Assembly (NCBI GenBank): GCA_021234535.1
Contig: CM037846.1
Location: 12,168,705 to 12,232,704 of the forward strand
Direction of reading: 5' to 3'
Length of the DNA: 64,000 bases
Source of the DNA: Stichopus chloronotus
Lineage: Eukaryota; Echinodermata; Holothuroidea; Aspidochirotida; Stichopodidae
Shown here: positions 3,273-48,460 of the stretch, piece by piece
How positions within the stretch are numbered: the first letter of the stretch is position 1
Layout: the number at the start of each line of letters is the position of its first letter
Position numbers and translations under genes: made by a program
Notes under the pieces: model-generated
What the model saw: the letters and a program-made list of their open reading frames with translations, nothing else
Told to the model about the DNA's origin: nothing
Database searches by the model: none

Positions 3273-4040
3273 CAGTGGCGGCGCCAGAATGTCAGACTTG
3301 GGGGGGGGGGGGCAAACTGAGTTCAGAGGAAAATGTTTTTTTTGGGGGGGCAAAGATTCCCGCCTTAGAGCCCCTGGTGGGTTCCAGGGGCAAAGCCCCG
3401 GTGGGGATGCAGGGGGCGAAGCCCCCGGAAGCTCTGAGGTTTCAGCATATCTCTGGGTGGAAAATTAAGCCCCAAGAGAGGTATATTATTTATCTTTATA
3501 TTACTTATTTTTTCGGTTGACCGTACTCCGAGGTTCCCAACTTTTTTCTTTGGGAGTACCATTTCACATTTACGCGGTACCACCGAGTACACAAACACAC
3601 GGGCACACACACATAGGCTATATACACTTCCATTCCATTCCTATGTTTAGGAAAACAACGACATTCCTGTATTTAGGAAAACAACCACCTACCCGCCCTT
3701 CCCTTATGCTGGACGGTAAACATTCCAGACAAAATTGATCTGACTAGGCTGGCCTACTGTTGAAGTGGCTACGGCATGATATGAAAACTGTCAACCTGTG
3801 TAACATAAGTTAGGCATTTATCAATCATGGTTACCCGGAAGCTGTTCCGGAAGCTGTTCGTATTCAGTCCAATGCCAATACATAGTTTTGTGATTAAATT
3901 AATTTTAGATGAGTACAAGATCTGATTGGGAAGGGTGAGAGCAACTGGGGAGGGGGCAACTGGGGGGAAGGAAACAATAAGGAGGGGCAAATTCCCCTTC
4001 ATGCCAACCCCCCCCCCCCCCACCCGTAGCGCCGCCACTG
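3273..4040. mobile_element. Non-autonomous hAT-type DNA transposon (768 bp)
   Basis: It starts CAGTGGCGGCGCCAG and ends with the reverse complement of CAGTGGCGGCGCTAC, giving 12 perfect terminal bases. It is flanked by a perfect 8-bp duplication CGTACGGA at 3265-3272 and 4041-4048. The subterminal regions are strikingly asymmetric: a run of G and GGGGG-rich hairpins on the left (3300-3440) and a C run on the right (4009-4021). Internal GC is higher than the flanks. No transposase is encoded; internal frames such as 3769-4191 minus cross the element end and are not genes. It sits in the intron downstream of receptor exon 2, or beyond the gene. Confidence 0.9.
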
Positions 4041-7492: not shown

Positions 7493-8060
7493 ATGAACGA
7501 CAAAAATGATTACGTCACAGATGTAATCTTTGAAAATGATTGTAGAAATACTCACAAAAAAGAGGTGATTACATACACAGAGATGTAATCTTTGAGAATG
7601 ATTGCATAATTACTTTCACAACCAAGTGGTGATTACATGTACAGAAGATGGAATCTTTGAAATGATTAAACCAATAATTACACAACTAAGATCTGATTAC
7701 ACAGGAGATATATTAAAAGCACACAACCATACGGTGATTACCCAAAAAATGTTATCTCTGAAAGTCGGGTTGTATCAATAGAGACCAAAAAGGCGTGATT
7801 ACACGAAGATTTTATGAAAATGATCGTACCAGTGCTCACGGACACAAAAAACTGTGGTTACACCGAAGATGCAATCTTTGAAAATGATTAAACCAATACA
7901 CACACAACCAAATGGGGATTACATAGGGACGTTATCTCTGAAAATCATTACTACACTAATACATCCAAGACTAAATAGTGATGACATGAAAAAGCGATTG
8001 TACCAATACTCACCCACGCCACCGAGCGGATGGGTGATTGCACGACAGAGGACTAAAGAA
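7493..8060. repeat. About 60-bp diverged minisatellite next to receptor exon 2
   Basis: About nine diverged units each begin GATTACA-like and continue with ATGTAATCTTTGAAAATGATT, then AATACTCAC, then CAACCAAATGGT variants. Units vary from about 40 to 65 bp. The array ends about 65 bp from the exon 2 donor. On the minus strand the ATACTCAC element reads GTGAGTAT, the same octamer as the real donor. Confidence 0.8.
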
Positions 8061-8125
8061 TGACGAAACAAAACATTTCAAGACGATTATTGACGAATAA
8101 AGTATCACACTTGACGTATACTCAC

Positions 8126-8261
8126 ATATCCAAATAATTACGATGATTACCGAAACCATTCGCGTTGATCTGTTTTGCATCGATTTTAGAGGACGCACAA
8201 TCGCCTGGTAGCGATCGACGCTCATAGCCGTCAAAGTCAAACAAGTCGCTTGGGCCGTCAC
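8126..8261 (-). CDS. Kisspeptin-type GPCR, second coding exon (TM3, DRY, ICL2, start of TM4)
   Basis: This 136-bp exon continues the receptor from residue 123. It starts after a pyrimidine-rich acceptor (ttttcgtctgttccag, AG at 8263-8262) and ends at the donor GTGAGTAT (GT at 8125-8124), with 45 codons plus one base, so the next intron is phase 1. It encodes the cytoplasmic half of TM3 with QATCLTLTAMSVDRY, that is D138-R139-Y140, then an intracellular loop rich in Arg and Lys and the first turns of TM4 ending in IIWI. The string QATC-LTAMSVDR is characteristic of kisspeptin receptors (GPR54 family); vertebrate members have DRW where this one has the canonical DRY. The phase-0 junction with the exon at 42692 reads MMH/VTAQATC, without gap or frameshift. 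Tandem repeats lie on both sides: a 30-40 bp repeat upstream in the intron (8503-8872) and a 60-bp repeat downstream (7493-8060). The next exon was not found, so the gene is partial in this window. Confidence 0.85.
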
Positions 8262-8502
8262 CTGGAACAGACGAAAATGCAATCAGCTAAGAGCATGCAT
8301 CATTTGAAATAAGACGAAAATTGTTTTTGAAATGGCAAATATTCCTTTATTCTGCAAACAGTCTTAAGGAATCTCTGTCCTTGATTGGGAAGATTTTGAA
8401 AGGGGGAGGGTGGGGGAAGGTGATGTATGTATGAGAATGGCTTTCAGGTGTCATTAAAAAATGTATTCTTCAAAGACAGTGAGCATAGGAACAGACTGTT
8501 AT

Positions 8503-26571: not shown

Positions 26572-26909
26572 AACAAGGACGAAACAGGACTGTCTGCAGA
26601 TTGAGTTTATTTACGCCCCTTAACATGGTAGTGCTACGGTATGACCATGTTGAGTTGAGCACTCTGCATTTCAAGATGGTGCATTGCTTGTGTAGTCCCA
26701 GCTATTTTAGCTGAGACGTAATACTATCGCATTATGCATAGCACACTCTTTTGAGTTTGTGCACTCTGGTATTCACAAGCAATGTACCGTGAAAGGCAGG
26801 ATTGATGCAAGTTACGCTTGTATCAATCCTGTCATTCAGTCTTGAAATTTACTCTGAGCTGCACTGATGAGTCCCACAACAAGGACGAAACAGTACTGTC
26901 TGCAGATTG

Positions 26910-26916
<7 letters not shown>
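26572..26916 (+). mobile_element. Retrozyme-like element: one 306-nt monomer with a partial upstream ribozyme
   Basis: A partial hammerhead (26572-26612: stem II 3' strand, GAAA, stem III, cleavage site after C26594, stem I 3' strand) is repeated almost identically at 26878-26916. This sets a monomer of 306 nt from cleavage site to cleavage site (26595-26900). The monomer is non-coding and strongly self-complementary: 8-bp arms 26622-26629/26644-26651; 15-bp arms 26678-26692/26774-26788 with one G-U; CAGCT/AGCTG at 26699-26703/26709-26713; and 14-bp arms 26798-26811/26817-26830 with one G-U and a 5-nt loop. Retrozymes are small non-autonomous retroelements whose transcripts self-cleave and circularise. 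The unit is bordered on the left by gtatatata (to 26571) and on the right by a TA microsatellite from 26914, so it appears to have entered or seeded TA repeats. Tandem arrangement plus structured RNA makes chance similarity unlikely. Confidence 0.8.
26851..26912 (+). ncRNA. Type I hammerhead self-cleaving ribozyme
   Basis: All conserved core elements are present in order. CTGATGA is at 26864-26870. Stem II is GTCC/GGAC (26871-26874 with 26883-26886) closed by the 8-nt loop CACAACAA. GAAA is at 26887-26890. The very short stem III is ACAG/CTGT (26890-26893 with 26896-26899) with a 2-nt loop. The cleavage nucleotide is C26900, so predicted cleavage is between 26900 and 26901. Stem I closes as CTGCA/TGCAG (26859-26863 with 26901-26905), then an internal loop (TGAG against ATT), then ACTC/GAGT (26851-26854 with 26909-26912). 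The open type I arrangement with a minute stem III is the form known from animal retrozymes and Penelope-like elements, where dimeric RNA often helps cleavage. No core base is altered, so it is predicted active. Confidence 0.9.
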
Positions 26917-26986
<70 letters not shown>

Positions 26987-28457: not shown

Positions 28458-28571
<114 letters not shown>

Positions 28572-28658
28572 AGAATCCGCGTGTACTCCCATATACAAAA
28601 CAAACAGAAAAAAGAGAGACATCGAGAGTGTCGTTGTTGACAAGGAGAGTACGGTAAT

Positions 28659-28723
28659 ATATTGTAGAAACGAAATTTTCGATTCCCCTGGAGTCTTCAT
28701 CAGCGTATGCTGACTTACAATAT
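28659..28723 (-). ncRNA. Degenerate hammerhead-like motif in the Penelope-like 3' tail
   Basis: On the minus strand CTGATGA (28703-28697) is followed by a short imperfect hairpin GACTCC/GGAATC and then GAAA (from 28680). An outer helix ATATTGTA/TACAATAT (28723-28716 with 28666-28659) encloses the motif. Compared with a canonical hammerhead there is one extra A after CTGATGA, one mismatch in stem II, a weak stem III and a 12-nt insertion before the core. Penelope-like elements are known to carry hammerhead motifs in their terminal regions, so this is read as a relic, probably inactive. Confidence 0.45.
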
Positions 28724-28808
28724 TTACAGCAGTGTAGGACTGGAAATATGGTCCAAAAGAAATTAACAGAAAACAACAACAAAAACGACAAACATAACAA
28801 AAACAAAA

Positions 28809-29447
28809 TTACACATTAACAATAGACTTAAGGTTACTAAGCGGTCCTAAATCTCTGTTTAAACCGATAACGTTAGATTTAAGTTTGAGAATCCAGTGGA
28901 TTTCGGATTGCTGTAGAAGTCCGGGGGAATGAAAGTTGGAAGCTATCAGGGTACACCGTAAGTTGTCTATGGAATGATTGGGGAGATTAAAGTGTTAGGC
29001 CACGGGAAAGCCTGGATTATTGTCTCTAATGGATTTCTAATGATTGTTGAAACTAAAACGAAACGGAGTTCCTGTCTCTCCTACGTAAATACCCTGGGGA
29101 CAAATATTACAATGGAAAATATAAACTAAATTACTGGATTCACACGTGAGAAGGGGGGGGGGGGGTTGTAGAGAAAACTTAACGCCATTGATGAGCACCT
29201 GGGATCCTGTGGTAATGTGTTGACATATAAGACAACGAGGTTTCATGCAGCCTTTATTGCCTCCGGAACCATCATCCGTTTCTGGGGTGGGGAGCTTAGA
29301 GGAAGTGAGAAGGGATCTAAGGTTGGGCGGCTGCCGAAAAGTGAGGATGGGGGGTTCCGAGAAGAGGTCCTCGAGGAGGGTGTCATCACGAAGGCTGATG
29401 AACTCTTTCTTTAAGTTATTGGAAAGAGCGGGAATGCGGGAATTATA
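28809..29447 (-). pseudogene. Broken Penelope-like GIY-YIG endonuclease coding fragment
   Basis: About 210 codons of the C-terminal part of the polyprotein remain, with two in-frame stops (29037-29039 and 28995-28997) and no frameshift between them. In the intact part, Cys pairs precede the nuclease, and the YVGET block provides the second half of the GIY-YIG signature. The first stop falls shortly after the segment where the family has a conserved basic residue, so the catalytic domain is truncated in this copy. It has no start codon of its own; the ATG at 29448-29450 lies in the flanking repeated sequence. No function is expected from this copy. Confidence 0.8.
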
Positions 29448-42297: not shown

Positions 42298-42691
42298 CGA
42301 GATTGACTTCTATGATATGTCTTACGTAAATCCTTTGTTTACTAAACCTTTCTTGCAAGGACATTTGGGAATTTTATAAACCCAGAGGGTGTTATTTTGG
42401 AAGGAAATTTTTTCTTATTTTTTCTTCAAAAATATTTATACCACTTATCAATGTGAAACTCATTGATTAAGTTTGCAGAGAATCTCCCCCCCCCGTGGCT
42501 AAAAAAGGGAAGAAAAACCTGTAACACTGCATATCCTTTTACTTCTAACCCAAGCAGTTGCTCTTTGCTTACGTCACAGCGTAAAAAAAAGACTTGAAGT
42601 ACATTCCACTCTAATATCATTTGAGAAGTTAATTTTTCATTTACATCGTTTTTGTCGTTGTTTACATGTGTTGTTATTGTTTTCTACTCAC

Positions 42692-43057
42692 GTGCATCAT
42701 AAAAAACATCAGCTTGCACATGAACTTGCCAAACATCCAGTCCTCCCAGACATAGATCGAAGCCGTCGACGGTACACAGCACAACAAGAAAGAGATATCA
42801 GTGATGGCGAGGTTGATGATGTAACTGTTGGTGGCGCTCTTCACGCGTCCATGGCCGGCCTTTAAGATGACGTAGACGACTGTGGAATTCCCCACCAGTC
42901 CGACTATCAGAACCAGCATGAGAACAGTCGGGACGGTTATCGCGGCAATTAACTTTGGGTCTACCCCCGTCGTGTCGTTGGTGTAACTGGAAGAGTAGTA
43001 CGATTCGTCTCCTGTTGATAACGAGTTTGCGATCTCTGTGGTCCTTCCGGAAGCCAT
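42692..43057 (-). CDS. Kisspeptin-type GPCR, first coding exon (N-terminus to start of TM3)
   Basis: This exon encodes the first 122 residues of a class A (rhodopsin-like) G-protein-coupled receptor, a plasma-membrane neuropeptide receptor. The extracellular N-terminus is about 35 residues and Ser/Thr/Tyr-rich, with an N-glycosylation sequon NDT at residue 27. TM1 (about 37-63) has the GLVGNS motif with Asn57. TM2 (about 77-98) has NLAITD with Asp87, then LLCCVP. The first extracellular loop carries Trp107 and the conserved disulphide Cys114 (WMFGKFMCK). The ATG has a good context (G at -3, G at +4) and is preceded by an in-frame TGA at 43070-43072, which fixes the start. The exon ends at ATGATGCAC followed by the donor GTGAGT (42691-42686), phase 0. 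NLAITDISFLLCCVP is closer to kisspeptin receptors than to galanin or allatostatin-A receptors, which remain the alternatives. A 5' untranslated exon further upstream is possible but not shown. Confidence 0.85.
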
Positions 43058-43072
43058 CGCAATCTTAAATCA

Positions 43073-43779: not shown

Positions 43780-44070
43780 TAAACTCTGACTTGAAGAAAA
43801 ATGACTTGTGACTTGAATTGAGGTAAAATGACTTGTGACTTGACTTTACTTGAGGTAAATTGACTTGTGACTTGAATTGAGGTAAAATGACTTGTGACTT
43901 GAATTGAGGTAAAATGACTTGTGACTTGACTTTACTTGAGGTAAATTGACTTGGGACTTGACTTGCAATGAAATGAAGTGACTTATGACTTGACTTGCTT
44001 GAAAAAAGATGACTTACCTTGTGACTTGCTACGATGTGACGAGTGACATGTCTTGGCAAAAAGTGACTTG
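43780..44070. repeat. About 27-bp minisatellite (GACTTGTGACTTG)
   Basis: Units of TGACTTGTGACTTGAATTGAGGTAAAA alternate with the variant GACTTTACTTGAGGTAAAT. It lies about 0.7 kb upstream of the receptor start codon, so it may be near or within the promoter region. Confidence 0.9.
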
Positions 44071-48208: not shown

Positions 48209-48460
48209 CCTCATAGTCACGATAGTCACCTCATAGTCATCTCATAGTTATGATAGTCACCTCAAAGTCACCTCATAGTTATGATAGTCACCTCATAGTC
48301 ACCTCATAGTCATGATAGTCACCTCATAGCCACGATAGTCACCTCATAGTCATCTCATAGTTATGATAGTCACCTCAAAGTCACCTCATAGTCACCTCAT
48401 AGTCATGATAGTCACCTCATAGTCATGATAGTCACCTCATAGTCATCTCATAGTCATGAT
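48209..48460. repeat. 20-bp minisatellite (CACCTCATAGTCATGATAGT)
   Basis: About a dozen units built from CACCTCATAGTCA and TGATAGT, combined into higher-order units with ATCTCATAG. The units are very similar, so expansion is recent. Confidence 0.95.

Follow-up and report, generated by a model that had tools for sequence, protein, structure and literature searches.

A retrozyme-like element with a type I hammerhead ribozyme in a sea cucumber genome, and insertion ends consistent with reverse transcription of circular RNA at (TA)n microsatellites

Animal non-LTR retrozymes have been reported from cnidarians, molluscs, amphibians, rotifers, platyhelminths, annelids, crustaceans and insects (PMC7229834); the terms 'echinoderm', 'sea urchin' and 'sea cucumber' do not occur in the main text of that paper. 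Reverse transcription of the retrozyme circle has already been proposed (PMC7229834, PMC7761336), with Penelope-like elements and Terminons named as likely candidates for the partner (PMC7761336, PMC7229834). According to PMC7761336, animal retrozymes have no conserved motif from which the partner might be deduced, and both the route of the circles back to the chromosomes and the enzyme are left open there. A purified Penelope-like enzyme starts internally on its RNA and prefers AT-rich DNA (PMC11167929). Among the literature matches listed, a scope that stops short of subscription papers and supplements, we found neither an echinoderm retrozyme nor insertion ends such as those described below. 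Here we analyse an element in a 64,000-nt stretch of Stichopus chloronotus DNA (the window), which would add an echinoderm to the animals with a reported retrozyme family.

On the plus strand at 26851-26912, the window carries what is, judged by its sequence, a canonical type I hammerhead ribozyme (HHR) with a complete core. The assignment agrees with the original prediction and is based on a match to the Rfam model RF02275, a geometric descriptor and a check of the pairs; every core position was found. Helix I comprises an outer part ACUC/GAGU (26851-26854/26909-26912) and an inner part CUGCA/UGCAG (26859-26863/26901-26905), the core is formed by CUGAUGA (26864-26870) and GAAA (26887-26890), helix II pairs GUCC with GGAC (26871-26874/26883-26886, whole span 26871-26886), and helix III is reduced to two base pairs with a GUAC cap (26891-26892/26897-26898). 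Cleavage is predicted after C26900 (26900|26901). RF02275 was the best Rfam match to this site (33.5 bits, E 1.6e-6, 801 nt scanned), below the gathering score of 52, and for that reason a default Rfam scan of the whole window returned no family at gathering score. The covariance-model match that had been suggested as a check was thus obtained, albeit under Rfam's curated cut-off. The descriptor (core plus three helices) located a single HHR in the window, the 26851-26912 site, and no match to the HHR pattern was found among viral or bacterial/archaeal contigs. For the isolated motif the RNAfold optimum differs from the hammerhead fold (-16.5 versus -12.9 kcal/mol with the HHR enforced).

One retrozyme unit extends from predicted cut to predicted cut (26595-26900, plus strand), giving a predicted circular RNA of 306 nt with a GC content of 42.8%; we number it from the first base past the HHR cut (position 1). 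Its expected lack of coding capacity was borne out, the longest ATG-initiated open reading frames in the circle being 29 aa (plus) and 27 aa (minus), as was its dense folding. The plus strand folds at -124.1 kcal/mol (z -9.1), equalled by none of 100 shuffles, the complementary minus strand at -107.8 kcal/mol (z -7.2), and the circular minimum free energy (MFE) is -117.2 kcal/mol. The MFE structure is a branched rod (26619-26850, plus strand) made of a long stem (26668-26692 with 26774-26848) and hairpins at 26619-26654, 26695-26717 and 26795-26833. The plus strand is 16.3 kcal/mol more stable than the minus strand, a difference matched in two of 300 simulations of neutral decay. In an alignment of 33 genomic units (31 distinct), standard pairs fill 96.8% of the pair cells of rod plus HHR; both sides change in 4 of 107 pairs, a number matched by 45 of 500 shuffles, and the covariation score was matched by three of 500. 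Helix II holds two of these four both-sided changes, and the clearest paired change lies there, with C-G replaced by U-A in five units and by U-G in four. The excess stability of one strand together with the covariation is evidence for selection on the RNA, though not proof of it. The original prediction had read G-U wobbles on the plus strand as a sign of RNA constraint; the simulations lend this some weight, but with the modest covariation the support is weak, and we have dropped strand-specific G-U pairs as a proof of RNA selection.

The whole insertion in the window covers 26572-26919 on the plus strand (99.4% identity in local alignment to the repeated unit) and amounts to 1.14 laps, from unit position 284 at its 5' end to position 19 at its 3' end, although the final TATA is possibly part of the target. 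The target is a microsatellite, (TA)35.5, located by TRF at 26914-26984, where the insertion has its 3' junction. A partial upstream copy of 42 nt (26572-26613, plus strand), which retains the ribozyme's 3' half and a predicted cut at 26594|26595, forms a direct repeat with 26878-26919 at 95% identity and a spacing of exactly 306 nt, which upholds the earlier claim of a partial second copy one monomer upstream with the same cut position. Its most satisfactory interpretation is as the 5' end of an insertion made in 1.14 rounds of a circle. The window has further short tandem arrays at 3835-3859, 7519-7701, 43787-43997 and 48209-48460.

The insertion lies between two coding exons of a GPR54-like receptor, the first one found (42677-43069, minus strand; PF00001, E 6.7e-14) and the next (8030-8282, minus strand; PF00001, E 1.2e-11). 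Joined, these exons match the GPR54-like protein of Apostichopus japonicus at 76% and that of Holothuria leucospilota at 67%, the receptor's nearest named relatives being from sea cucumbers. Placement of the retrozyme in the receptor intron therefore holds as to position, but on the opposite strand; since the receptor is encoded on the minus strand, its pre-mRNA would carry the complement of the ribozyme and not the ribozyme itself.

We searched for related copies in the assembly that contains the window (267 contigs, 719 Mb). A full-unit query gave at least 57 matches (40 of 167 candidates scored), and 55 loci were examined, namely the window, 39 fetched loci and 15 new ones out of the 30 loci found with a 75-nt HHR query. 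Tandem arrays of 4.94, 2.97 and 1.80 units are present, so the tandem units anticipated by the original prediction exist, in arrays and among many copies. All 55 copies consist of laps of a single unit, and no terminal repeats separate from the unit were seen in them. The family's usual unit is 304 nt; the monomer length of 306 nt given earlier is exact for the spacing in the window but not for the family, and the difference is due to a change in HHR loop 2 that is absent from the other aligned copies. The exact HHR core pattern occurs 76 times in the genome, 56 times with the loop of the retrozyme family or that of the window and 20 times with another loop; a reversed-pattern control gave none. 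When 20 family loci were scanned with Rfam, 11 gave HHR matches with E no higher than 0.001, and the nine without any were mostly the more diverged; HHRs made up 20 of the 22 matches listed, the best scoring 40.6 bits against the cut-off of 52. That an ordinary palindromic repeat happens to contain an HHR-like motif by chance is hardly conceivable. A score under the Rfam gathering score is what such a motif might give, but the excess of exact cores over the reversed control, the predominance of HHRs among the Rfam matches listed and their recurrence in 11 of 20 related loci all speak against it, as does the descriptor, which found only 13 sites in 4,888 random windows built from the window's dinucleotide frequencies. 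With a hammerhead model match and many genomic copies including arrays, the identification of the element as animal retrozyme-like stands.

The ends of the copies follow a pattern. In 50 of the 55 loci the 3' end falls at unit position 11-19, beyond the cleavage junction, and these 50 copies therefore cross that junction. The proportion is 35 of 40 among loci found with the whole unit, while the query that yielded the 15 added loci stops at position 19, which biases them to the common 3' end. In the five exceptions the 3' end is at position 7, 42, 242, 248 or 266. TATATA directly follows the element in 26 of the first 40 loci, and the flanks of the 15 added loci are TA-rich too. The 5' ends of the 50 copies, on the other hand, vary, giving lengths between 0.27 and 4.94 laps; 23 copies fall short of 0.98 laps, 13 measure 0.98-1.06 and 14 reach 1.06 or more. 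A one-lap stop stands out, with the 5' end at position 10-17 in 11 of 50 copies (binomial P 5.7e-8 against a uniform distribution); this bin was chosen from the data, yet it is also where a circle predicts a stop, and the fullest 8-nt bin outside it holds five. The one-lap site is AT-rich, so that microhomology joining with (TA)n could add to the peak, and the aligner may extend a 5' end a few bases into the TA flank. No 5' end among the 50 copies lies within 3 nt of the HHR cut, the nearest beyond this limit being at positions 4 (L010) and 303 (L044); L027, one of the five excluded loci, starts at 306. Run-off on a linear cut monomer should leave ends at the cut, so this count of zero speaks against such a template. 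A common 3' end combined with variable 5' ends reads as the signature of target-primed reverse transcription (TPRT), most likely of a circular (or multimeric) RNA.

From the observed ribozyme sequence, dispersed family, ends, one-lap peak, TA targets and array-specific variants, we propose with considerable confidence that the element is a non-autonomous animal retrozyme whose hammerhead-cut circle is inserted by TPRT at (TA)n, probably by a Penelope-like reverse transcriptase (RT). In transcripts of copies that exceed one unit, the type I hammerhead would cut out a monomer of about 304 nt, which would then be closed to a circle, as presumed from the family, with ligation assumed to be a host function. 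An RT, most likely from a Penelope-like element, would open a (TA)n microsatellite and begin the copy at a single internal position of the circle, a UUUA about 13-16 nt beyond the cleavage/ligation junction. It would then run backwards through the junction and could stop anywhere between a quarter of a lap and five laps, with a marked peak at one lap where the RT would stop on meeting its own start. The ends of the 55 copies would thus offer a concrete and testable answer, with a single start site in the circle, insertion at (TA)n and a length limited by laps, and a genome assembly would become a read-out of the reverse transcription of circular RNA.

The same mechanism might instead act on a linear, uncut multimeric transcript. 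Unprocessed multimers would also give junction-crossing copies, tandem arrays do occur in the genome, and an Anolis Penelope element inserts RNA in vitro whether its HHR is active or not (PMC11167929). We nevertheless regard a linear template as unlikely, because it offers no reason for a stop after exactly one unit, as seen in 11 of 50 copies, and because of variants private to two arrays. In the 33-unit alignment, array L012 has one column with a base unique to that array in all four of its full units and array L013 one such column in all three, while six columns vary inside L012 and five inside L013. Shared private variants of this kind fit several laps of one template circle, though later homogenisation would look alike.

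A DNA-level origin, in which a satellite spreads by unequal exchange and by extrachromosomal DNA circles re-inserting at TA, with the HHR as a passenger, appears very improbable. It would account for arrays of up to 4.94 units, and DNA circles too can re-insert in permuted form. Such circles would, however, be expected to break at many points, whereas 36 of the 50 copies sharing the common 3' end measure less than 1.06 units, with one end fixed and the other variable. The better folding of the plus strand than of the minus strand also argues against this origin.

About 2 kb from the retrozyme, and likewise at (TA)n, lies the remnant of a Penelope-like element (28568-29440, minus strand), recognised from its homologues as a 5'-truncated C-terminal part with two in-frame stops and flanked on both sides by the 19-nt AATTATACATAATATATAT leading into (TA)n. 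At E 1e-3 or better it has 50 database homologues, with PF00078 (RT) in 20, PF01541 (GIY-YIG) in 12 and both in three; when three homologues were scanned for domains, two proved to carry RVT_1 and one GIY-YIG. This domain evidence comes from database homologues of the window fragment rather than from the genome's own copies, and a Pfam scan of the window's separate Penelope pieces gave no hit even at E 10. A search of PDB sequences with the Penelope piece returned four matches to snake-venom cysteine-rich proteins (best E 0.016), which are weak and probably spurious. In the genome at least 150 relatives of the remnant were scored (1,174 candidates), some with open frames of more than 700 aa.

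Ten distinct loci of the remnant's family were matched, of which one (L052) was too short for its 3' end to be seen. Among the nine readable loci, four end in a long (TA)n (L048, L050, L053, L058) and three in shorter or broken TA-rich runs (L049, L051, L054), while L067 and L074 do not clearly do so. Alternative Penelope 3' ends, at query positions around 832-850 and at 874-881, were noted across L048-L074 and recall the optional 'tail' described in PMC11167929. We considered whether the remnant's 3' sequence is shared with the retrozyme and dropped the idea, the visible overlap being the TA target. In the remnant's 3' region a degenerate hammerhead-like motif (28659-28723, minus strand) was read by eye, with an 8-bp outer stem ATATTGTA/TACAATAT round CTGATGA...GAAA; it matched none of the Rfam hammerheads up to E 10. 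At another locus (L076:3020-3101), a variant of the retrozyme HHR (91.5% over 71 nt) with its 3' end at (TA)n sits beside a Penelope-like frame, the remainder of the HHR-bearing unit reading N; we read this as two elements that probably share a (TA)n tract, rather than as a retrozyme-type ribozyme belonging to a Penelope element. A Penelope-like partner for retrozymes has already been proposed (PMC7229834, PMC7761336), and such an element is a candidate mobilising partner here that fits these sequence data.

The 1.14-lap copy in the window raises the question of how insertions with one complete and one partial ribozyme behave. Folding predictions, which exclude co-transcriptional folding and loop contacts, give for the uncut 348-nt RNA a best structure in which the two copies of TCTGCAGA pair with each other, with a helix I pair probability of 0.0 for either ribozyme; enforcing the ribozyme costs 9.3 kcal/mol at the downstream site and 13.4 kcal/mol at the upstream one. 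For 26572-26900, the RNA after the downstream cut, the helix I strand of the upstream site and the 5' half of the downstream ribozyme come together in the unconstrained fold, with a pairing probability of about 0.96 for four of the five inner helix I pairs and 0.67 for the fifth. In its best structure both helix III strands are paired together and CUGAUGA and GAA are free, which is in the model a hammerhead of type III topology at the upstream site. The upstream site could therefore retain enough of the 3' half for cutting there with the downstream 5' half. The 5' ribozyme half would first act as a type I hammerhead at the downstream site and would then re-pair as type III at the upstream site, with the whole rod as the loop of helix I. 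On this modelling the window copy might release one exact monomer, and a copy of 1.14 laps would, if so, still yield exactly one circle. We put forward tentatively, as a plausible though somewhat doubtful extension, that retrozymes re-enter (TA)n by TPRT of a closed RNA circle with a Penelope-type enzyme, one internal start and a tendency to stop after one lap, and that copies slightly longer than one lap stay alive through a single 5' half serving both sites.

A second hammerhead-bearing element also came to light. Eight of the 20 exact HHR cores with another loop were fetched (L108-L115), and all have the loop CAAAAA. In these a tRNA-like head is followed directly by CTGATGAGTCCCAAAAAGGACGAAAC, and helix III is almost lacking. 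We take stretches of the head to resemble an A box and a B box; ARAGORN called no tRNA in the element of L108-L115. Each of the eight is matched by a hammerhead model with E no higher than 0.001, one of them (L111) passing the Rfam type I cut-off with 36.5 bits against 34, and two (L108, L115) run at their 3' end into (TA)n. The 20 cores with another loop seem to belong to this tRNA-SINE-like element, which recalls the SINE-like Sm-alpha of schistosomes (PMC2770079). For the retrozyme itself, no intact tRNA-derived head was found, as a search of the window for tRNA genes gave none.

Compared with described systems, the retrozyme appears on sequence grounds to be a new member of the animal non-LTR retrozymes, with an unusually clear insertion anatomy. 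Like those described by Cervera and de la Pena (2020; PMC7229834) it has a type I HHR and many copies, a unit within about 170-400 nt arranged in full or partial tandem, a GC content below 45-50%, no coding capacity and strong self-pairing; its fixed 3' end at (TA)n and its one-lap peak are not among the features that we found described there. The HHR repeats of newt and axolotl likewise have a weak helix III whose cap is palindromic (GUAC in the present element) and, compared by description, have units of 330-350 nt against 304-306 nt (PMC7229834). With plant LTR retrozymes it has in common the nature of a non-autonomous, HHR-bearing retroelement, circular RNA being established for theirs and only predicted here (PMC7761336). 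The plant elements have type III HHRs, units of 600-1000 bp, LTRs, a PBS and a PPT (PMC7761336), unlike the type I HHR and 304-306-nt unit found here, where terminal repeats were not seen. Penelope-like elements with a minimal HHR resemble it in an internal start of reverse transcription, AT-rich targets and partial tandems, and in an HHR near the unit boundary (PMC11167929). They are, however, autonomous and encode an RT/GIY-YIG protein (PMC11167929), whereas the retrozyme has no coding capacity, and its HHR, with a helix III of two base pairs, is fuller than their minimal one.
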